From Malus domestica (lineage: Eukaryota; Streptophyta; Magnoliopsida; Rosales; Rosaceae), in contig NC_091661.1 of NCBI RefSeq assembly GCF_042453785.1, positions 25,349,501 to 25,413,500 on the forward strand: DNA of 64,000 nt, in the 5' to 3' direction. The position numbers and the translations under genes are program-made. The notes beneath the pieces were generated by a model, which worked only from the letters and a program-made list of their open reading frames with translations, was not told the origin of the DNA and made no database searches. This document shows positions 9,216 through 46,340 of the stretch, piece by piece (position 1 is the stretch's first letter; every line of letters begins with the position of its first letter).

Positions 9216-9370
9216 AAGGAAAACTAATGAAAAGAGTTTGAAAACTTTGAGTTTTAATGATAAGGACAAAATAAAAGGTAAAATGAATAGTATCATATTT
9301 GACTTTTTAGTGTAAAAATATGGTTTTTCGTTAAAGTGAACAGTACCGTGGGCTTTTCGTTAAAACTCCC
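9216..9370. mobile_element. MITE, family B copy 1
   Basis: About 155 bp, starting AAGGAAAACTAATGAAAAG and ending CGTTAAAACTCCC. The ends are imperfect inverted repeats (GGAAAACTAATGAAAAG against GGAGTTTTAACGAAAAG). Flanks (AAAAAATA and AAAAAAATA) resemble a short target duplication. About 80-85% identical by eye to copy 2, 80 bp away. Confidence 0.7.
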
Positions 9371-9452
9371 AAAAAAATATGAGTCAAGACCAGAGTTAAA
9401 AAAGATTGAAAAGAAAAAATACAGATGGATTCTAATTTCTACATAAATTTTA

Positions 9453-9606
9453 AGGAAAACTAATAAAAATGGCTTGAAAACTTTGAGTTTTAACGATAAA
9501 GACAAAATAAATGGTAAAGTGAATAGTACCAGGTTCGACTTTTTAGTGTAAAAATGTGGTTTTTCGTTAAAGTGAACAGTACAGTGGACTTTTCGTTAAA
9601 ACTCCC
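9453..9606. mobile_element. MITE, family B copy 2 with 9-bp target duplication
   Basis: Same family as copy 1. The 9-mer TAAATTTTA lies at 9444-9452 and again at 9607-9615, directly abutting both ends. A 9-bp duplication is typical of Mutator-like elements, so I infer a MULE-derived MITE. Reverse-orientation relatives lie near 34523-34678 and 44733-44888. Confidence 0.75.
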
Positions 9607-10356
9607 TAAATTTTATATTCTCAATACATCGTCTTAACTCTTCATCCGATTCCTTCTCAAATACAAACCTTTGGAATATGCTAGCATTTGACGTGTGTAT
9701 TTAGTGGCAGATCTAGGATTCAAATCTTGGGTGATATGTGTTAAAAGTCCAAGTTTTTTAGATAGAAAGAGTGCAAAGGGCGCAAAAAAAATAATTTTAG
9801 TTTATTCACTGAGACATTTCGTCAAATGAGTGATATCAAGAGAATTCGCCTAGCAGATATTACATCAAACAATTAGTAGGTATAAATTAAAAGGGGACCC
9901 GTACAAAATGTTCGGAGGATCCTTGTTAGACCTTCACATTTATATTTTCTGAACTTTAAGTGGTCCTGGGACCATCTAGGTTTCAGTGTGCATCCGCCTC
10001 TACGTGTGTAATGATGTGATGGTGATTAAATTATTTGTAAATGTCTTTCACTCCTTATTAGTAGACAAAGTGTATTGATCATATTTTTCTTTTTTAACAA
10101 ATAATATTATATACACTAAAGAAGTGAGATAGTGAGCTAAACCTTACTATGAATTAGTTGTACGCTCAATCGATAATCATAAACATACCGCTATCGTTTC
10201 GCCAAAAAAATTTCCATTAAAAGATATTTTGAGCTCCACGGCAAGGATGATGTCGACCTATGTGATGTTATAGTTTACAAGATGAAGGTGTCATTGACCA
10301 TCTTTTTCCCTCAAAATCCAGACAAATTAGTGAACCTGGACTAATTCCTACACGGA

Positions 10357-33833: not shown

Positions 33834-34471
33834 TGTTGCTTTTCCGATTCAGTTGCTTAATTTCATTACTGGGTAGCTCGATTTGTTGATTCTTGGAGGG
33901 TTCTTAGAGATCTTTGATCCGCACAGTCGACTGTGAATTGGGTTCAATTACTTGCTTTGATTAGTAGGTGACTAGCACAGCTTTCGATTCATGGAGGTGC
34001 TGTTGCTAATTACTTAATTGGGTATATGAAGAAACTGTTGTTGATTACTTAACTGGTAATTTTGATTCTTAGATGGTCCTGGGGATTCAATTTGTTCAGT
34101 TTGGATTGCTGCTCAAAGGAATTCCTGTTTTTGTACTCTGTTTTTAGGGTATTTTGTATACGAAATGGTGGTTGTGATAAAGCCAATTGCACCACTAGTC
34201 TTCTTGTGATGAACAGAGTTTAGTGGATGTTTTTGCAGAGAAAATCGATGTTTGGATGGTTTGAATTTTTAATCTCAAAACTGAAAGTTAGCATCTTGGT
34301 TGGCTGCAATGTTTAATTGAAGATTTGTTGTGTGATTGTTGCAAGTTTCATGCTTTAGTTTCTTTTGAGATGATTGAATTCTGCAGATTGAATTGGATTG
34401 GGAATTTGGGTGTCATAAGTTCTGCAGATTGAATTGAAATTTTAATGGACCCTTGTCTAGTACTAGGTACA
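33834..34471 (+). other. GH17 3'-UTR and intergenic
   Basis: T-rich trailer without coding features, up to the start of the 420-bp duplicated segment. Confidence 0.5.
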
Positions 34472-34891
34472 TGGAAAATGACTAGCATCCTGTAAAGTCT
34501 ACCTTTTTACTGCCCAATTTGGAACTTTAACGAAAAAAATTCGGTACTATTCATTTTAATAAAAAATCACATTTTTATACTAAAAAGTCAATCATGATAT
34601 TATTCATTTTACATTTTATTTTATCATTATCGTTAAAACTCAAAGTTTTCAAGCTATTTTCATTAGTTTTTTTATAAAAATAATGTATATAAACCAATAA
34701 CATGCAAAGAATAAAAAAAAAAATTAATGACACAATTATTCGTAAAAATGAAGAGAGTTATCATTTTATTAGTACAAGATAATTGAAAACGAAAATGATG
34801 TTTCAAATTAATGATCACAATAGGTCAAATATATTATAATTACAAATTTCGAATTGCATAATATGTTGTGCCCAAGATTGCTAAACCTAAT
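34472..34891. repeat. Left copy of a ~420-bp direct duplication flanking the LTR element
   Basis: Begins TGGAAAATGACTAGCATCC and ends TTGCTAAACCTAAT. The same sequence, with roughly 2-3% differences by eye, lies at 44682-45102 on the other side of the LTR element. It contains a reverse-oriented family B MITE (about 34523-34678). The left copy abuts the first base of the 5' LTR; the right copy abuts the last base of the 3' LTR. Confidence 0.92.
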
Positions 34892-35936
34892 TGTAGACAT
34901 CGAAATTTCGGTAAATAAATGTTGACGGATAAATCAAAGTTTCAACGCTCATGTATTACATAAATTTTACACGTAGCGTGTGTTTAAACAAAAAATCGAA
35001 ATAGTTGGAAAAGTCATCAAACAGGACACGTGTCAACACCTGGCAGAAACGACTTATTTCATCTGGGATATTATATTCAAAATTAGGCCTTGGAAATTTC
35101 TATAAATAGAAGGCTAATTCATTCATTTAGGGGAACCAAAATCATTAGGCAAAATTCTTGAAGCTCTGAAACTCTGAAACTCCGAAGCTCTCAAGTATCT
35201 AGGTTCCCGAAGAATCAAGAAAGCTCTCTTCGATCTTCGATCTTCGTTCATCGTTCATCCTAAGATCAAGCCCCAACGGCCCTTTGGATCAACAATCATC
35301 CACCTTCAAAATCAAGCCCTGACGGCCCTTGAAGAAAGTGTTCTTCGTTTTTCGTTCTTCGTTCATCGTTCTTCCAAGATCAAGCCCCAACAGCCCTTTG
35401 GATCAACAATCTTCCACCAATTCAAGATCAAGCCCCGACGGCCCTTGAAGAAAGTGTTCTTCGTTCTTCGTTCATCGTTCTTCCAAAATCAAGCCTCGAC
35501 GGCCCTTGGATCAACAAACCACCGTTCTTCAAGATCAAGCCCAAAAGCCCTTGAAGATCCGTTCATCACTGTTCTTCAAGATTAAGCCCAAAAGCCCTTG
35601 AAGATCCGTTCATCACCGTTATTCAAGATCAAGCCTTAACGGCCCTTGAAGAAACACTCATCCTCAAGATCAAGCCCCAACGGCTCCTTGAAGATCCGCT
35701 CAAATCCACCTTCAAAGATTAAGCCCATGGCCCTTTGAAGAAACTTCCAACAGTTCATCCAAGATCAAGCCTCGACGACCCTTGGATCAACAAAACATCC
35801 ACAAATCAATACCTTACGGAGATCGAATCAGAGGATCAAAATAGAGAGAGATTGTAACCCTAAATCATCAAATACACAAATATTATTTTGTGCACGTTGT
35901 TCTTGTCTCTTTCGTTTCAGGAATTTTCCGTGTTCA
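34892..35936 (+). repeat. 5' LTR with internal minisatellite
   Basis: Starts TGTAGACATCG and ends CCGTGTTCA (TG...CA). The second half is built from variants of a 25-50-bp unit containing AAGATCAAGCC and CGGCCCTTGAAG or CGGCCCTTTGGATCAAC, arrayed between about 35255 and 35795. TATA-like TCTATAAATAGAAGG lies near 35098-35112, probably the element's own promoter. Confidence 0.9.
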
Positions 35937-36017
35937 CAAATTGGCACGCCCGGTGGGACAATCTCTACCTCTCATCTCTTTCTCCGTTCAAGAAATTCGA
36001 GCACACTTCCAAAATTA

Positions 36018-37925
36018 ATGGCATCAAGGAAGGCTCAAACTGTTCCCGCAACTGGCGCAAATAACAAGAGCGTCATCGTCGCAAGTGGTGTCCCTTTAGG
36101 CATCACGACTCGAAGCAAGGCAAGAGCTACTTCTGCCGCCTCTTTCACCTCTGCATCAACTCTGCCAAGGGAACAAGAGCACCTAAGGCACGAGCCTTTG
36201 ATCACCTTAGCCTCACCAAGGGGCGAAAATCCAAGGAAATACTCCGAATCCATGCTCTCCAATGCCGATTCGAGCGGCAGTTCAGCCATGCAAGTCATGA
36301 CCATTGGAGCAACTTCAATCGATGAGCAGCTGGCTCAAATGAATGAAGCAATCGCAAGGCTAACCCGAACTGTGGAAGAAAAAGACTTGCAAATCACTGC
36401 ACTCGTCAGCCGACTGGAGCCACAGGACGACGATAACCCTAACCCAGAAGAGGAGCCTCTAGTGGAGAATATCGATGTGAAGCCGCAGCCAGACCAAGCA
36501 GCGGCACTCATGGGATCTCTTTCTATCCAGCAACTGCAGGAGATGATCGCCAGCACCGTCAAGGCACAGTACGAAAGGAGCTCAAATACATCCGGGTTGT
36601 ACTCAAAGCCGTATTCAAAGAAGATCGACGCCTTAAGGATGCCGAAAGGTTATCAACCGCCAAAGTTCATGCAATTCGATGGAAAGGGAAACCCGAAACA
36701 GCACGCGGCCCACTTTGTTGAAACTTGCAACAACGCAGGGACCGAAGGGGACTACCTCGCCAAGCAGTTTGTGCACTCGCTGAAAGGAAACGCCTTTGAG
36801 TGGTACACGGACCTAGAGCCTGAGTCCATCAACAGCTGGGAGTAATTGGAGCGGGAATTCCTCAACCGCTTCTACAGCACCCGCCGCACTGTGAGCATGC
36901 TAGAGCTAACGAGCACAAAGCAGTGGAAGGACGAACCAGTCATTGACTACATCAATAGATGGCGCACTCTAAGCCTCGATTGTAAAGACAGGCTCTCGGA
37001 AACCTCTTCAATCGAGATGTGCATCCAAGGCATGCAATGGGGTTTGCAATACATCATTCAAGGCATTAAACCACGGACCTTCGAGGAATTGGCCACTCGC
37101 GCCCATGACATGGAGTTAAGCATCGCCTATCATGGGAAGAAGGAACCGATCGCCGACTACAAGAACGACAAAGTTCTTAAGACAAAGGTGGAGAAGGCTG
37201 CATGGAAACCCACCAAGGAAGCGATGACGGTCAACACATCTCCCGTCAAAATCTCCACACGAGGCAAGGCGATTCAAATCGAAGCTTTTCGTGATCAAGA
37301 GATGCGTAGACGCACTTTGAAGGAGCTTGAGGAGAAGACTTATCCATTCCCCGACTCTGATGTGGTTGCCATGCTGGATGACCTGTTGGACAAAAAGGTG
37401 ATCGGTTTGCCTAAGTGCAGATGGCCGGAAAAGATGAATCGTACCGACAATCCAAGGTACTGTAAATTCCACCGCTTCATCAGTCATCCGACAGAAAAAT
37501 GCTTCGTGCTGAAAGATCTCATCATGAAGCTGGCTCAGAAAGGAATCATCGAGCTAGATCTTGACGATGTGGTGAAGTCAAACTATACCACCATCACTTC
37601 TGGCTCTTCTGACTCAAGGTTTTTACCTCAACCGTTGGGGGCATCCTCCAAGACAAGCAAAGTTGAAGGATGGACTCAAGTCACTCCTAAGAAATTGCAC
37701 AAGAAGTGTATGTCTCCTCCACAAGTCCGCCAATCGGAAAGGGGGCAAAACAGCTCTTGTCAACCTTCAAAGCAACGTGAACGGGTTGAAGATGATGAAA
37801 ATTTGACACATAGGTCGTCCATCCCCATCACGATGCACGATTTCTTTCCTGAAGACTTCTTCAATCACTCGGTCAAGACTCATTGCTATGAAAATTGCAA
37901 GGAAAGCCTCTACAGGATCGTTTGA
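36018..37925 (+). pseudogene. gag region of the LTR element (fossil)
   Basis: Encodes a Ty3/Gypsy-type Gag with a retrotransposon_gag domain (blocks FDGKGNPKQH, FVHSLKGNAFEWYTDL, FLNRFYSTRR) and a C-terminal Cys/His-containing block (YCKFHRFISHPTEKCF) typical of the plant Tat/Ogre-like lineage. An N-terminal coiled-coil segment (about 36330-36420) precedes it. No pol follows. Confidence 0.8.
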
Positions 37926-38567
37926 CAAATTCACAAAGCTCCTTGTCCACAAGAGCCTAAACTGCAGGACACCCAAGCTCCTGGTTTGCACGAGCATAAA
38001 AGGCAACATCAACGCTCCTGGTCTGCACGAGCATAAAAGGCAACACCAACGCTCCTTGCCTGCATGAGCTGAAACTGCAAACGGCACAAAAAAAGAAAAT
38101 ACCAAAAAAAAATATATGTATGTATTTGAACTACGTTACGACTTGATCTCTTCTTTGGAGGGGTACGTAGTCAGCTCGAATGTTCAAAATTTTCGAGTTC
38201 AGTCACATCAAATTAAAAAGAATCAATGTTTTATTAAAGAAGGTCAATTTTATTACAAATTTATTTTGTTAAGAAAATTTGCAATTTTCTTTGTAAAAAA
38301 TTAAATTACACTTTCTTCGAAAAAAAAACAAAAAAAATAAAAAAATAAAAAAAAATAAAAATAAAATCAGAAGATGGAAGCTTTTCTCCGCACTCGGCCT
38401 ACTGGCCTGCGATGCCAGGATCCATGCCAGCAAAACCCTAATCACCATAACCACGTGGCGGTGGAAAAGCAAAACAACATCAAACACAAGAAATACAAGC
38501 AGCCGAGATCTCAGGTGGGAGGCGGAGGAGAAGGAGCATCATTAGTCATTTTCGAAGCTCGAGCACC

Positions 38568-39230
38568 ATGGATGCCAAGTCCGTGTATTCCTCATCGAGT
38601 TCAGGGTTTCGAACACCTCCTCCTTATAGCCACACACATATTTCATTTGCTGCCAGCACGAAGGCTTCAACCCAATCTCAAGGGTTACGGCCTGCCAGTA
38701 GCAATCAGTCTTCATCTCCTCCGGTAATGGTCGGTTCACCCACAACCACAACCTCATCAATGGCTAAGAGTGCTGGTGGAAGCCCCAGGATAACTAGTTC
38801 GACTTCCACAGGAAATAAAGCTGGCCAAGTATCGTCTTTGTTATCTCAGCAGGCCAAGAACTCACCAACAGTGCCCAGTCAGAAGTCGTCTCCTGTTGGC
38901 GGGAGGAATGTCCCTTCGATCATAGGCCCACTCCACCACAACAATGTTTTTTGGGCCAACAATGGTTTCGACATCGCCGTCAGGCTCTTGGAGCCCATCA
39001 AGCAAAGGGTCTCTTCCTCTCTTCCGCCTGCAACAGCAAGAACCACGCCCAAGTCTCCATGGCTTCTCCCAGAGAGAGCACGACATCACCTTCTTCAACC
39101 CTTTAACCTTTATCGTCGGCCCCAACGACGACGGCAAAATCATCCTTTCCCGCAGCACCCGCTACATCTCATGCGTCCCACCGGTGCTCTTACTCTTCCA
39201 AATCCTCGTAAGTAGCCACGATGTCCACAC
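38568..39230 (+). other. Ser-rich and other host-like segments inside the LTR element
   Basis: An open stretch of Ser/Thr/Pro-rich sequence (for example QQAKNSPTVPSQKSSPVGGR at about 38848-38907) looks like a piece of a plant nuclear regulatory protein; I think of the C-terminal part of TIME FOR COFFEE-like proteins but am unsure. At about 39080-39140 another frame reads ITFFNPLTFIVGPNDDGK, resembling the RAD50 N-terminal region; this is weak. Both differ in style from the gag and from retroelement proteins. Confidence 0.35.
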
Positions 39231-39415
39231 TTCCAAGATTCAATCGCAGACCTCCCTCTTCACATCTACTGCTTCGAAAACATCTCCCAATTCATGGAAC
39301 TGCCCCTGCTTGATCAACGGCAACAACGGCGACACCTTCACTTACGCCGACGTCGAGCTCGCCTCCCGCAAGGTCGCCTCGGGGCACCACAAAATCGGCA
39401 TTCACCAAATTGACG
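39231..39415 (+). pseudogene. Fragment of a 4-coumarate:CoA ligase (4CL) N-terminus, captured
   Basis: Reads LPLHIYCFENISQF, then in another frame CLINGNNGDTFTYADVELAS and RKVASGHHKIGIHQ, close to the N-terminal region of plant 4CL, a phenylpropanoid enzyme. It sits between the Ser-rich piece and the acyl-activating enzyme piece, inside the LTR element. Only about 60 residues' worth is present. Confidence 0.6.
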
Positions 39416-40400
39416 TCAGCAAACTCATCTCCTCTAACACCCTTGGACTTTCTGGAAAGAGCAGCCGTCGTCTACGGCGACTGCCCGTCCGTTATATACG
39501 GAGACACCACCTACACTTGGACACAGACCCATCGTCGATGTCTCCGCGTGGCTTCCTCTATATCATCCCTTGGTATCAAGACAGGCAACGTGGTGTCTGT
39601 TCTTTCCCCAAACATCCCAGCCATGTACAAGCTCCATTTCGCCGTACCCATGTCTGGCGCCATCCTCAACAACATCAACACCCGCCTGGACAGGCGCGCC
39701 GTCATGCGCAGCACCACTCGATGACTTCCTTTGCACGTACGTGGACCTCGTGGACAGGGGCGACGAGGGGTTCGAGTGGGTCTCGCCGTCAAACGAGTGG
39801 GTTCCGATGACGCTGAACTACACATCGGGGACCACATCGTCTCCCAAGGGAGTCGTTCACTCTCACAGAGGCGTCTTCATCATCGCCGTCGATTCCCTGA
39901 TCGACTGGGGTGTACCCAAACAGCCGGTGTACCTATAGACCCTACCGATGTTCCACACTAACGGGTGGAGCTACCCCTACGAAATGGCAGCCGTCGATGG
40001 GACCAACATCTGCATCCGTAAGTTCGACGCCCAAATAATCTATTCCATGATCAAACGATAGCGAGTTACCCACATGTGCGGTGCGCCGGTGGTGCTGAAC
40101 ATGCTCACAAACGTCCCGTCCGGAACCGAAAAGCTCGAGTACCCGGTTCACACCCTGACCACCGGAGCTCCGCTGCCGGTTCCAGTTCTGTTCCGGACCG
40201 AGTCCCTGGGTTCGTGGTGAGTCACGGTTATGGGTTGACCGAAACAGCGGGGCTGGTGGTATCGTGCGCGTAGAAGAGGAAGTGGAATTTGTTGCCGGCG
40301 ACTGAGAGAGCGAGGCTGAAGTCGAAGCAAATAGTGAGGACAGTCGTGCTCCCTGAAGCTTGCAGGACAATGAAGTTCGTGGCTGGGCTTTTGACGTCGA
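39416..40400 (+). pseudogene. Fragment of an acyl-activating enzyme (AAE/benzoate-CoA-ligase-like) gene, captured
   Basis: Segments match peroxisomal acyl-activating enzymes of the ANL superfamily in order: ANSSPLTPLDFLERAAVVYG, FAVPMSGAILNNINTRLD, LNYTSGTTSSPKGVVHSHRG (the AMP-binding P-loop motif), PMFHTNGW, THMCGAPVVLNML, HGYGLTETAG and WNLLPATERARLK. It breaks off before the C-terminal subdomain and is broken several times. Exon boundaries seem to have been lost, suggesting capture from spliced RNA, but I cannot prove that. Confidence 0.75.
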
Positions 40401-40649
40401 TGTTGATTGACGGATGATAGAGCTCTTGATGGGCAGAGATCTTCGGCGAGGCTCTCGTTGGGTAGAGTGTAGCTCGTTGGGGGAGTAGGGTGTCTTGAGA
40501 GATTCCCTCGAGCTCGTCACTATGACAACCCTAGTAGCAAAGAACTTCAACGACCGCCGTCAAACGACTAGCCGGTCGTGAAGCTCGAAGCACCATCTTT
40601 GCGCCCTCCTTGCTCCGCTCCCTGCAAAATTCCCCATCCCGTCATCCAA

Positions 40650-41085
40650 ATTTATACAAAAAAAATAAATAATAAAAAAAATATATGGTGGAACACTGCA
40701 CCATGATTAAAGAAAAATAAAATAAAATAAAATAAAATAAAACAATAAAATAATAAAAATGCATGGTGCGTCTGGCACCATATGAAAAAAAAGAATAGTG
40801 GGTGCATGATTACAAAATAAAAAAAATAAAAATAAATAAATAAATAAATAAAAAATAAATAAAAAATAATAATAATAAAAAAAAAATGATGATGGTGCAT
40901 CTGGCACCATGTGACAAAAGAAAGAAAAAAAAAAAAAGTGGTGGTGCATCTGGCACCATGAGAAACATATGAATATATATAAAGCATTTAGTAAAGCCCA
41001 TCTTTTATTTATTTGTGTAAAAAAATTTTTACATAAATTCGCATTCCACATGCCATAAAAAAAAAAAAAAAAAAAAAAAGACAAA
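40650..41085. repeat. A-rich block with repeated short palindromes
   Basis: AAAT/AAAAT microsatellite sequence is punctuated by near-palindromic units such as ATGGTGCATCTGGCACCAT (about 40890-40910 and 40940-40960) and ATGGTGCGTCTGGCACCAT (about 40760-40780), about four or five in all. The F/Y-rich frames on the other strand are artefacts of the A/T composition. Confidence 0.8.
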
Positions 41086-41107
41086 TCAAATTTACAAGAG
41101 GGGATTT

Positions 41108-41758
41108 TCAAGGTTGATCAGATGGCGCCTCAGTACTCGGCGGAACCCCAGGAGAAGGAGGCACCGAATGTTGATCATTTGAGGCTTCATTACGCAGTAC
41201 AGCCCCAGAAGACGAAGGTAAATGCTGCTGGAACAAACCCACAAACCTCTGATGATCAAGTAAAATCTGACCATCAGATTCCTGCATCTGGTTAATCTTC
41301 CTCTTCATGTTTGTCGCATAGCTATGTGCGAGCTTATGCAACTGTTTATTCTCCTGCTTGAGCCCTCTAATCTCCTGTTTGAGACTCATCACTTCCGCCG
41401 CCAATGATTCAACTTGACGGGTTCGAGCAAATAGGCGTTGGGCCATATTAGACACAGAACTTGCACACTGCACACTGAGAGCCAGATAATCCTTAACAGC
41501 CAACTCATCAGACCGTTTGGAAAGTAGTCTGTTATCTCTGGGAGTGACAAGGTTTCGGGCCACCACCGCAGCGGTCATATCATTCTTCACCACCGAATCC
41601 CCAACGGTAAGAGGACCAGTAGGGGATATGAAGGATGGGCGCCATATGTTGTCTGGAGAAGGCGGGACTGCCTCTTCACCAAGGTTCAAGTCAAAACGAC
41701 GGTCGGAGGGTCCAGATATTTTCAAAGTGTTGAAGAAAGAAGAGATCGGACAAATCAA
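41108..41758 (-). other. Antisense ORF with coiled coil, in 3' part of LTR element
   Basis: An open frame of 216 codons on the strand opposite to gag. The middle (about residues 105-155) is a heptad-patterned coiled coil (RLFARTRQVESLAAEVMSL then KQEIRGLKQENKQLHKL). The N-terminal part has DLNLGEEAVPPSP and WRPSFISPTGPLTVGDSVV; the C-terminus is Pro/Ser-rich. I recall near-identical hypothetical proteins repeated many times in apple and pear annotations. Antisense ORFs at this place are known in some large plant Gypsy elements (Tat/Ogre/Retand relatives); function is unknown. The call is the ORF only, not evidence of expression. Confidence 0.6.
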
Positions 41759-43200
41759 GATCTTAGAAGTGCAAGAAGGGAGTTTTCACAAGCGAAAATT
41801 CAAGTGTGCTTTGAAACAAACAACGTGCCTCTATAAAAAATCAGCACTCGACGGGATTTCAGAGATCGAAGAGGCGAGCTCAGAATTCGAAGAGGCCATT
41901 CAAAAATCGAAGAGGCAAGCTCAGAAATCGGAGAAGCATCTTGCTTTTCCAGACGCGTCGGCACCCATCACACGCAAACTCAGCTTTGCGAAAATCACGG
42001 GCAATTTGTCGAAGCGCCGATCCTAGATATCGAAGAGGCGCCAGTCTTTTTCAGCCTCGTCAACACCTGTCATATGCACACTCAACTTTGCGCAAATCAC
42101 GAGCAATTTGTCGAAGATTTTCGGTGAAGGAGAAAGCACGTGAAGTTTACTGTTCAATCATCCAACGGTTGCCGACAAGAGTGAAAGAACAGTACCGGTT
42201 ATTAATCCATATAAATGTCCACCTTTACCCTACATAGCAAGGCAGACATACAGAACATTTCTTCATCTCCGAGAATGCCTTCCCAACAAAGCCTCTCGAG
42301 TCACCCAGTGTTCCTTATTCCTTGGGGTACCTCTGTAAGCCAATGACTCCAAAGCAAAAATATCTCATATCACCAGGGTAGAAAGCAAGAGTATCTCATA
42401 TCATGTGTTCTCTCTGTCCTTTCTTTTGTCCTTGTTCTTACTTACAAAGACAAGGATAAAGAAAACAATATGCCGGAACCTCCACTCAAACTCGGGTAAG
42501 GAACCGACCGCTTGGAACCCTTCCCTGATTGCTTACCTAGCACTGCTCTCGAGTACTCATTTCCCATTGCTGCTGTACTTCCAAAGAAGCTGCCACATCT
42601 GCCTGAAGAAACAAGCAGAGAAGAATGCAGCATGCACAGTCAACTCAGCAGAAGGAGTCTGAGATGAGGAACTCGAGAAGATGCCACATCTGCCTGAGGA
42701 ACAGATAAAGGAAATGAAAATAATACCTTGAAACATGTGGAGACAAGTGCAACCAAGCACGTGCTTATTCATTCGCTACTTCTTCAAAATCAAAAGTATC
42801 TCATATAATCAGGGTTGCAATCATTCTGGACGGTGAATTCGTTTTGACCCTCAAATTCTTGGGTCGACTTGCTAGGCGTTGTGGGCTGCACGTGCCGATT
42901 CACCACCCTTGAATCGAATCCTTAAAGATCAAGTCACCAACTGGAAGAAGAGCCCATCAATCTTGAAGATCATACCGTTGACCAAACTGCTCAGGTGTGA
43001 ATTAGAAAGATTGAACAAAGAAACAGGCTGTCACATTTACCTCGTGCTTGCTTGCCATGTGTTCAAATCAACCTTCGAGATCAAGCCTCAAAGGCCCTTG
43101 AAGAAGCTTCCAGCCAAAGTTCAAGATCAAGCCTCAACGACCCTTGAAGAAATCACAAGTCCGATTCAAGATCAAGTGTCTACCACCCTTGAATCAAATC

Positions 43201-43352
43201 CAGTTCAAGAATAAGCTGTGGAAAGTCAACAATTGGAGGAAACCAGAAAATCCTCCAACCCAGTTCAAGAATAAGCTGTGGAAAGTCAACAATTGGAGGA
43301 ATCCAGAAAGTCCTCCAATCCAGTTCAAGATCAAAGCTGTGGAAAGTCAACA
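43201..43352. repeat. 60-bp tandem repeat, about 2.5 copies
   Basis: Units start at 43201, 43261 and 43321 with CAGTTCAAGA and share GCTGTGGAAAGTCAAC and TTGGAGGAA. It lies in the spacer before the 3' LTR and shares the TTCAAGATCAAGCC-type core with the LTR minisatellite. Confidence 0.9.
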
Positions 43353-43643
43353 AGTGCAACAAAATACGTGCCGATTCATCCACTACCAAAGCCAAAAATC
43401 ATCTACCACATGAAGTTCCTTGTGGTCCAATTTCAACTTTCAAGATCAAGCCTCGACGGCCGTTGAAGAAATTTCAAACAAAAGTTCAAGAACAAGCCTC
43501 AACGGCCCTTGAAGAAAGCTCCAGCCCCATTCAAGATCAAGCCTCGATGGCCCTTGGATTGACATCTACATTAAGTGACTTCAAAACGCATCTCCTACAC
43601 GCGACAAGCACATGTATACGACGCGTCTTGAAGTGGGGGCATT

Positions 43644-44681
43644 TGTAGACATCGAAATTTCGGTAAATAAATGTTGACCAATAAATCAAAGTTTCAACGC
43701 TCATATATTACATAAATTTTACACGTAGCGTGTGTCTAAACAAAAAATCGAAATAGTTGGAAAAGTCATCAAACAGGACACGTGTCAACACCTGGCAGAA
43801 ACGACTTATTTCATCTGGGATATTATATTCAAAATTAGGCCTTGGAAATTTCTATAAATAGAAGGCTAATTCATTCATTTAGGGGAACCAAAATCATTAG
43901 GAAAAATTATTGAAGCTCTGAAACTCTGAAACTTCGAAGCTCTCAAGTATCCAGGTTCCCGAAGAATCAAGAAAGCTCTCTTCGATCTTCGATCTTCGTT
44001 CATCGTTCATCCTAAGATCAAGCCCCAACGGCCATTTGGATCAACAATCATCCACCTTCAAGATCAAGCCCTAACGGCCCTTGAAGAAAGTGTTCTTCGT
44101 TCTTCGTTCATCGTTCTTCCAAGATCAAGCCCCAACGGCCCTTTGGATCAACAATCTTCCACCAATTCAAGATCAAGCCCCGACGGCCCTTGAAGAAAGT
44201 GTTATTCGTTCTTCGTTCATCGTTCTTCCAAAATCAAGCCTTGACGGCCCTTGGATCAACAAGCCACCGTTCTTCAAGATCAAGCCCAAAAGCCCTTGAA
44301 GATCCGTTTATCACTGTTCTTCAAGATTAAGCCCAAAAGCCCTTGAAGATCCGTTCATCACCGTTATTCAAGATCAAGCCTTAACGGCCCTTGAAGAAAC
44401 ACTCATCCTCAAGATCAAGCCCCAACGGCTCCTTGAAGATCCGCTCAAATCCACCTTCAAAGATCAAGCCCACGGCCATTTGAAGAAACTTCCAACAGTT
44501 CATCCAAGATCAAGCCTCGACGGCCCTTGGATCAACAAAACATCCACAAATCAATACCTTACGGAGATCGAATCAGAGGATCAAAATAGAGAGAGATTGT
44601 AACCCTAAATCATCAAATACACAAATATTATTTTGTGCACGTTGTTCTTGTCTCTTTCGTTTCAGGAATTTTCCGTGTTCA
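43644..44681 (+). repeat. 3' LTR
   Basis: Same as the 5' LTR with about 2-3% differences and a few small length changes in the minisatellite. Ends CCGTGTTCA at 44681, directly followed by the right copy of the 420-bp duplication. Confidence 0.9.
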
Positions 44682-45102
44682 TGGAAAATGACTAGCATCC
44701 TGTAAAGTCTACCTTTTTACTGCCCAATTTGGAACTTTAACAAAAAAATTTCGGTACTATTCATTTTAATAAAAAATCACATTTTTACATTAAAAAGTCA
44801 ATCCTGATATTATTCATTTTACATTTTATTTTGTCATTATCGTTAAAACTCAAAAATTTCAAGCTATTTTCATTAGTTTTCTTATAAAAATAATGTATAA
44901 AAACCAATAACATGCAAAGAATAAAAAAAAAAAAATAATGACACAATTATTCGTAAAAATGAAGAGAGTTATCATTTTATTAGTACAAGATAATTGAAAA
45001 CGAAAATGATGTTTCAAATTAATGATCACAATAGGTCAAATATATTATAATTACAAATTTCGAATTGCATAATATGTTGTGCCCAAGATTGCTAAACCTA
45101 AT
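44682..45102. repeat. Right copy of the ~420-bp direct duplication
   Basis: Matches 34472-34891 over its full length with about ten differences, then diverges: after CCTAAT the right side continues CCATACCCAACCC while the left side enters the LTR. The family B MITE inside (about 44733-44888) is therefore also duplicated. Confidence 0.92.
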
Positions 45103-46340
45103 CCATACCCAACCCAAATCAAGAAAATAAAGCTAATTTCACCCTAAAAATTAGAAAAGGTGAACAAATTGGACCTCCAAAAATCCAAAGAAGATGATAA
45201 TATCATAAATGAGAGAGGATGCTCGCCGGATTCTTATTGTATATACCGTAAGAATTCTGAAAATCTTCCAACCACATCCGTCTACATATTATATTACAAA
45301 ACCCAAAAACAGAATCCCGCGAGGATCCTTCTGGATCAGAAACGGGCATGGTGGACCGACTGTGATAATTGTTTGACCATGGTTCTTGCTTGGGCCGATT
45401 ACAAAACCCAAAAAGAATAATAAAAAAATTCGGATTGTGCGCCGTCGTTTTCGCGTTTCAGAAACACTCAGAGAGTGAGAGAGAGAGAGAGAGTCTTCTG
45501 CTTTTTCGTCGTCGTCGTCGTCTTCTTCTTGTGGAAGGTAAAGGGTAAAGGGTATGGTGTGAAACTGCAAAGAAGGAACTCCGGCCCTCTTTAAATCCCA
45601 GGTATGAATTATGTACCCTCTTTCGATTTCGATGCAATTTTTTAATATTTTGTTTTAGCATGCAATCGCCAACGCATTGTAGATTCACGGAGGTTGTTTC
45701 AAATGCGAATTTTGTCACTTCAATTGAGCTTTTCTGTATGAACACTCTAATTGCATCGTATGGGTTTATATTTATTTGCTTCAGTTTTCATTGCATTTCG
45801 AGTTTTTCACTTTTGTTTTCTGCTTATTTTTTGCATTTAACTGTATAAAGTTAGAGACTTGAATTATGAATCTAATCCTTATACTCATTAAGGTTATCAA
45901 CAATAAATCAACTGCAAATTATGTAGTTTGGCAAAAAAGGTTGCTCTTTATTTGGACTGCAAAATAATTTGAAGAAAATTAATGGGGTTTTTCATAATTA
46001 CAATGCTGCTTTGGTGTTGAAGTTTGCCCAAATTATCCAGCTCGTCTGGAAGCTTTTAAAATGACTGCAAATGCTTTTGGAACCAATCCTTAATAAAAAT
46101 GCAAGTGAATCCTGGAAAAGCACTTGAAGTGCTTCATGCAAGAAGCACATAAGAAACCCAAAAACACTTTCACCAAAAGTGCTTTCAGTCATTTTAAAAG
46201 CACTTCCATACAAACCCTTCATTTCCTTTTTTCATGTTAAATACATTGGGGTTTTAACTTTTTGTTTTGAGGTAACGAATTTCGCATTGTATCGTGTTCA
46301 TGCCTGTGAAAAATGTCAGAGAATTTGGAATTGATAAAGG
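45103..46340 (+). other. Promoter, 5'-UTR and 5'-UTR intron of the SANT gene
   Basis: A GA microsatellite lies at about 45475-45493 and a (GTC)n/(TTC)n stretch at about 45505-45530 in the likely leader. CCCAG|GTATGA at about 45602 is a good donor; the leader probably resumes shortly before 46341. The intron contains the foldback element at 46047-46208. Confidence 0.5.
46047..46208. mobile_element. Foldback MITE, family C
   Basis: The left arm TGGAAGCTTTTAAAATGACT pairs with the right arm AGTCATTTTAAAAGCACTTCC, with inner pairing GCAAATGCTTTTGG / CCAAAAGTGCTTTC and a central AAGCACTTGAAGTGCTT palindrome. 162 bp. It resembles the remnants near 18379-18605 and 22190-22380. Probably hAT-derived; no clear target duplication. 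Confidence 0.7.

Follow-up and report, generated by a model that had tools for sequence, protein, structure and literature searches.

A Malus domestica LTR retrotransposon between ~420-bp direct repeats of host DNA, with one canonical LTR end and one trimmed end joined at a microhomology

The closest described systems are insertions of HERV-K (HML-2), with target duplications of 111 and 250 bp for which empty alleles were sequenced and a putative duplication of 450 bp as the longest; table 2 of the source lists eight that exceed 10 bp (PMC5488345). In plants, transposed host genes are flanked by direct repeats of more than 30 bp in 18/126 cases, and target duplication is one explanation offered; these are host genes and not an LTR element, and the authors also propose recombination of an excised circle. 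Vaughn and Bennetzen are said to have described, in 2014, rice tandem duplications that arose by patch repair. In another source, rice offers a plant case of direct duplication ascribed to break repair, with sizes into the kb range and a share of events that has dropped to 5% at 200 bp, but the inserted material there is the duplicated copy itself, whereas the present copies have a 9.8-kb retrotransposon between them (PMC7971508). At Cas9 breaks in mouse zygotes, retrotransposon-derived sequence is captured at the break, as may have happened here; compared with what the accessible part of that report describes, the present element has both LTRs nearly complete and a canonical left end (PMC4516963). 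The literature matches listed include no case of a plant LTR retrotransposon whose target duplication runs to hundreds of bp.

Our window is a stretch of 64,000 nucleotides of M. domestica (contig NC_091661.1, positions 25,349,501 to 25,413,500 of the forward strand), and all coordinates below are positions within it. The features are as follows, with X denoting the duplicated segment; the 5' LTR (placed also by the ends of relatives), the PBS-like and polypurine-tract-like motifs and the CA were read from the sequence.

34472..34891, + strand: copy A of X, host DNA adjoining the 5' LTR on its left, with a left context that is ancestral by the C7 homeolog
34521..34674, + strand: MITE-like dispersed repeat within copy A (X ~50-203), its edges set by an alignment of 6 copies
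34892..35938 (1047 bp), + strand: 5' LTR, TGTAGAC...GTGTTCACA
35942..35959, + strand: PBS-like TGGCACGCCCGGTGGGAC, 3 nt past the 5' LTR
36768..37037, + strand: gag remnant, a single frame broken by a stop at 36843-36845 (Pfam Retrotrans_gag)
38400..40350, + strand: host-gene-like fragments, including acyl-activating/4CL-like exons
43630..43643, + strand: polypurine-tract-like GAAGTGGGGGCATT, 5' of the 3' LTR
43644..44681 (1038 bp), + strand: 3' LTR, terminal GTGTTCA, which stops 2 nt before the family end (4 nt when CA is counted with X)
44680..44681, + strand: microhomology (CA) shared by the LTR end and the left edge of X
44682..45102, + strand: copy B of X, left side derived, right side ancestral, 3' terminal bases CTAAT

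The element between the copies of X is ~9.8 kb long, and its two LTRs, together with a PBS-like and a PPT-like motif, mark it as an LTR retrotransposon. The PBS-like motif is presumably a primer-binding site; no tRNA was matched to it. Joined to the LTR end it has 56 exact matches in the genome, and the PPT-like motif joined to the LTR start has 710, with the present copy counted in both. Pfam on 8 of 26 open frames returns gag (two Retrotrans_gag matches, of 16.9 bits at E 0.0074 and of 23.8 bits at E 5.4e-5, neither reaching the cut-off of 24.1), AMP-binding and two weak coiled-coil matches; reverse transcriptase, integrase and protease gave no match in these 8 frames. The element may be non-autonomous. 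The acyl-activating/4CL-like exons are joined in the element without the gap present at genomic loci.

The first-pass annotation had proposed that a host segment of about 420 bp recurs on both sides of the element, and it does. Copies A (420 bp) and B (421 bp) differ by 11 mismatches in 420 aligned columns and one 1-bp gap in a pairwise alignment, and a repeat finder returns the same pair as two ungapped blocks. Chance resemblance is ruled out by a shuffled control, in which single-base-shuffled X scored at most 31.9 bits against copy B in 20 trials. A long direct host repeat thus adjoins both LTRs as in HML-2-type insertions, and the likeness lies in an LTR element between direct host repeats far longer than 5-6 bp. 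HERV-K (HML-2) differs in being a human retrovirus, several of its insertions being solo LTRs, while the present case is a plant LTR retrotransposon known from the insertion allele alone (PMC5488345).

The description of X as host DNA needs one qualification, since X ~50-203 is a dispersed repeat and the segment is therefore not wholly unique. This part has at least 41 genome matches besides A and B, at 78-90% identity (40 scored of 3406 first-look candidates). The last 192 bp of X (34700-34891) have no third copy in the 651-Mb genome in a search that skips very common words; being found in these two copies only, they give no sign of a third locus as the source of X, and import from such a locus is rejected on this search.

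The outer junctions of the duplication can be compared with the C7 homeolog. There the left flank continues directly into X positions 16-53 (a 38-bp match), with no LTR match between the left flank and the start of X, and the right flank past copy B matches at 45130-45189. On this comparison, the junction from the left flank into X and the sequence to the right of copy B are the ancestral ones. Other matches of the homeolog to X reach at most 24 bp, none with an E below 0.002. The homeolog cannot serve as a complete empty site: past X position 53 come ~2.56 kb without a good match, and the remainder of X is unalignable.

We now consider how the element meets X on its two sides. Family members share the LTR ends and the PBS-like and PPT-like motifs with the present element, but the 5-bp target duplication is theirs only. 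For this comparison 14 pairs were selected for well-kept PBS/PPT motifs out of 34 picked, with L106 in place of L071; pairs ~13-17 kb apart were excluded as likely nested, and pair L096/L097 was unscorable (right end not located), which leaves 13 of 14 pairs. The duplication is 5 bp in all 13, in line with the expectation of about 5 bp for normal integration, and none has flank-to-flank similarity. X as the outer terminal repeats of a larger element is ruled out by the same 13 scorable relatives, whose flanks share no such repeat. The present element lacks the short fixed-length duplication of its family: CTAAT stands before the 5' LTR and TGGAA (or CATGG) after the 3' LTR. An ordinary insertion exactly at an X-X tandem junction is ruled out by LTR ends without a 5-bp duplication.

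The first-pass annotation also held that X abuts both outer LTR ends exactly. This is correct on the left, where the LTR end is canonical, complete and processed. It is not correct on the right, where the LTR stops 2 (or 4) nt early, without the last 2 bases found in its own 5' LTR and in relatives, and is joined to X at a shared CA. The microhomology itself was rightly noted: CA occurs at 34470-34471 and at 44680-44681, is common to both left edges and is assignable to neither side. Right ends were located in 39 relatives, of which 36 end in exact CACA, 2 carry one substitution before ACA, and one (L042) is ambiguous, so that 38/39 clearly reach the normal right LTR end. L042 ends in CATA, which may be a substitution or a trimmed end; its LTR also carries an internal insertion. 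Among the 29 relatives used for ends, L013 is without a located LTR start and L036 starts after a PPT-like motif. In the accessible part of the HERV-K (HML-2) source a trimmed LTR end is not reported as a clue, and in one 96-bp case two nucleotides separate the repeat from the LTR (PMC5488345).

The divergence of the two copies had been taken to be similar to that of the LTRs and so to date both together. The figures are compatible with this (X 11/420, 2.6%; LTRs 20 mismatches in about 1032-1038 aligned columns, 1.9%; p = 0.43), but the dating is weak, because 9 of the 11 mismatches sit in the repeat part of X (9/154 versus 2/266 in the remainder, p = 0.0026). Outside the repeat, X is nominally less diverged than the LTRs (p = 0.28). 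When the 9 repeat mismatches are polarised on six repeat copies, B seems to carry the derived base at 5 of them and A at 1, with a mixed picture at the other 3; this may reflect mutation or conversion.

The absent 5-bp duplication, the ancestral outer junctions and the trimmed right LTR joined at CA all support the earlier suggestion that duplication and insertion were one event. At a probability of roughly 0.45, slightly short of even odds, our preferred reading is that one LTR end integrated normally and that repair synthesis with X as template, followed by microhomology joining, closed the other. A linear cDNA of the family would have entered a site with a single X, ending in CTAAT and followed by CCATACC. 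Its left end would have undergone ordinary integrase-like joining, with the TG end directly behind CTAAT, and its right end would have escaped integrase joining at the normal CA. The open right chromosome end (CTAAT, then CCATACC...) would then have been extended by ~415 bases through repair synthesis copying X, from an intact sister or homologous chromosome or from the left arm via the 5-bp CTAAT repeat, and closed by end joining at CA to an LTR end short of 2-4 bases. The order of these steps, the template and the existence of a break are what we infer. Counting against the repair-copy reading, a 2-bp microhomology is common by chance; moreover, since CA remains the terminus of the trimmed LTR, integrase may have mis-processed the element at this inner CA, and L042 may have a similar end.

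How else could the same anatomy arise? Nicks on opposite strands ~420 bp apart, with capture of the cDNA and filling of both overhangs (patch-mediated repair), would give a true 420-bp target duplication and yield exactly the observed anatomy in one step. Paired nicks would leave no mark of their own in a single genome. We regard this as unlikely, though a serious competitor: the 420-bp duplex between the nicks should not, by our reasoning, separate spontaneously, and the trimmed right LTR end disfavours integrase-type joining at both ends. Rice duplications of such kind fall sharply above 125 bp in the available portion of that source (PMC7971508), and given the 5% reached by 200 bp, a 420-bp copy would fit templated synthesis somewhat better than paired nicks. 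An assembly artefact is very improbable, since 11 mismatches and a gap separate A from B, 20 mismatches separate the two LTRs, and A and B each run on into homeologous flank.

Two histories in more than one step are each improbable, the second by a shade more so. X, as part of a larger unit, may already have been a tandem when the element entered the first copy with a 5-bp duplication, a later deletion then removing what lay between the LTR end and a CA of the second copy. The CA microhomology and the trimmed LTR suit a deletion junction, X is overall nominally more divergent than the LTRs, and for HERV-K a related pseudo-duplication model has been put forward in which segmental duplications recombine (PMC5488345). 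This history requires a second event that happens to break within 2-4 bp of the end of the LTR; the genome search gave no other copy of the unique part of X, the C7 homeolog has one 38-bp match at the start of X with its other matches to X at most 24 bp long, and outside the repeat the copies are nominally closer than the LTRs. That last figure would instead favour a normal insertion with a CTAAT duplication, followed by a break at the 3' LTR/flank junction at which X was copied and the ends joined. CTAAT, the 5 bases before the 5' LTR, also ends copy B, as a normal duplication would give, and relative L064 carries a tandem duplication over its 3' LTR/flank junction (151 bp matched with 1 mismatch, at a spacing of 147 bp), so later re-duplication of a junction of this type can occur. 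Here too a post-integration break would have to fall within 2-4 bp of the LTR end, and X overall is no younger than the LTRs.

The claim that a giant target duplication is rarely described holds as to rarity, but such duplications are already described for HERV-K (HML-2), at 111, 250 and a putative 450 bp (PMC5488345); the present case is clean and rare, and not unprecedented. It is a well-preserved long target duplication in a plant, and its asymmetry is diagnostic: one LTR end is perfect, the other is trimmed and shows microhomology. Any assembled genome can be scanned for this asymmetry, which would give the frequency of half-failed integration; LTR callers that rely on 5-bp duplications would probably miss such copies. 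Tentatively, and with some doubt, plant LTR retrotransposons might sometimes integrate on one side only, with the host completing the other by copying hundreds of target bases from an intact chromosome. If this is true, giant target duplications would record, in readable form, a failure of concerted integration and not wide staggered cuts.

The window holds a host segment of about 420 bp, here called X, in two copies on either side of an LTR retrotransposon of about 9.8 kb:

34472-34891, X copy A, 420 bp
34892-35938, 5' LTR of the element
43644-44681, 3' LTR of the element
44682-45102, X copy B, the second occurrence of X

Alignment of A and B gives 11 mismatches over 420 columns and one 1-bp gap, which bears out the first-pass annotation's description of a host repeat around an LTR element; the LTR pair differs at 20 of 1038 columns. 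When we search the genome (651 Mb, 19 contigs; very common words skipped), the part of X at 34700-34891 is found in two places only, A and B. Positions ~50-203 of X are a dispersed repeat, its edges set by alignment with six copies, which has 41 matches at 78-90% identity besides A and B (40 candidates scored out of 3406); two more copies, adjacent and on the minus strand, lie at 9220-9612. Degenerate repeat units (AAGATCAAGCCC...) lie inside both LTRs (35178-35830 and 43930-44572), and similar units occur in the element interior at 43068-43559.

Relatives of the element normally end their LTRs in ...GTGTTCACA, and this full end is present on the window 5' LTR. The exact CACA end is seen in 26 of 29 relatives in the first set of right ends; two (L049, L060) have one substitution before ACA, and the 3' LTR of L042 (contig C11), which carries an internal insertion, reads CATA (GTGTTCATA), which could reflect either a substitution or a 2-nt trimming like that of the window element. 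Exact CACA also ends 10 of 11 additional right-end stretches; in the remaining one, L097, the LTR end was not found. Exact abutment of X on both LTRs, as first proposed, holds on the left, where TGTAGAC directly follows CTAAT, but not on the right, where the 3' LTR halts at GTGTTCA and is followed by TGG of X. Because the CA at this junction can be assigned to the LTR or to X, the microhomology noted earlier, 2 or 4 nt are missing from the 3' LTR.

For a control, 34 pairings of a 5' with a 3' LTR end were picked among the relatives; we use 14 of them, on C1, C2, C3 and C6, and both ends are located in 13. All 13 carry an identical 5-bp duplication and none has a flank-to-flank match at E 0.001, in a sample where decayed copies are under-represented because relatives were selected for well-kept motifs. 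At the window element, CTAAT precedes the 5' LTR and does not directly follow the 3' LTR; it is found at the end of copy B. At one relative on C6, L064, the 3' LTR/flank junction together with the 5-bp target duplication GAGTC lies within a head-to-tail duplication at 2564-2861 (151 bp matched with 1 mismatch, spacing 147 bp). At another, L036 (~414; C1, 18592282), a PPT-like motif immediately before the LTR and a distance of 8.8 kb to another copy suggest a complex element in which an LTR is shared.

The homeologous region on contig C7 bears on which junctions are old. The left flank matches it at 86% over 1525 columns, reaching 34434, and on C7 a match to X 16-53 (34/38) comes directly after this flank. 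Homology restarts on the right at 45130 (77% over 61 columns), with more from 45399 (64% over 638 columns). The other X matches in the region are at most 24 bp, with E 0.002 or worse; one of these (X 29-51, E 0.03) lies near the first X match. The LTR has no match in this region. From this pattern of homology, with no LTR match there, we infer that A is ancestral at its left edge and B on its right side, and that the junctions of A with the 5' LTR and of the 3' LTR with B are new. No copy of the dispersed repeat is found at the corresponding point on C7, so this repeat was probably already part of X when the retrotransposon arrived.

The similar divergence of A/B and the LTRs, claimed at first pass, is compatible with the data for the whole of X (p = 0.43) but not for its repeat part (p = 0.008); the rest of X gives p = 0.28. 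Mismatches number 9/154 in the repeat part and 2/266 in the rest (p = 0.0026), for a split chosen post hoc with edges taken from other repeat copies. These 9 of the 11 mismatches (34521-34674 and the same part of B), polarised against six repeat copies, look derived in B in 5 cases and in A in 1, with 3 mixed. With assumed rates (per site and year) of 1.3e-8 to 4e-9, the insertion would be roughly 0.8-2.5 million years old. The age of the duplication is compatible with that of the insertion, although divergence does not prove the single event once drawn from it.

The element interior looks chimeric from its matches. Gag remnants fall below the Pfam cut-off and are broken by a stop, pol was not found in the 8 open frames scanned of 26, and there is an AMP-binding match (E 5e-16). 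The stretch 39413-40350, with acyl-activating/4CL-like exons, matches C17 (33604035-33604325 and 33604461-33605119, 95-96%) and C9 (34514551-34514841 and 34514977-34515631, 87-88%). Because the exons are continuous across the site of a 135-bp gap in both loci, the element probably captured a host transcript after splicing. Further host-gene-like pieces lie at 38400-39440: 38403-39255 matches one C13 locus (40744460-40745304, 96%) and in parts other sites on C13, C10 and C9; 39250-39440 matches C13:30314872-30315059 (92%); and a RAD50-like stretch at 39079-39171 is weak (E 0.087).

A normal LTR end paired with a trimmed, microhomologous one is the outcome expected if integration took place on one side only and repair closed the other. 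One LTR end would integrate normally and the other be left to repair, synthesis would extend the chromosome end carrying CTAAT/CCATACC across X, and the extended end would then be end-joined to the LTR. Fill-in of wide staggered ends may instead have occurred; it would give the same product. Paired nicks 420 bp apart are made slightly less likely by rice data, in which tandem duplications, at 70% of events at the start, fall above 125 bp and are down to 5% by 200 bp, with some above 1 kb (PMC7971508). An older duplication of X followed by deletion, or a later break after insertion, could also place X on both sides, but each requires that a breakpoint fall no more than a few bases from the LTR end.

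For HERV-K (HML-2), PMC5488345 gives target duplications of 250 bp and 111 bp, both with the pre-integration allele sequenced, and a putative one of 450 bp, tabulates eight above 10 bp, and also proposes a recombination model for long duplications. Long target duplications are therefore already known, and the window case is the same phenomenon, differing in that the element is a plant LTR retrotransposon.
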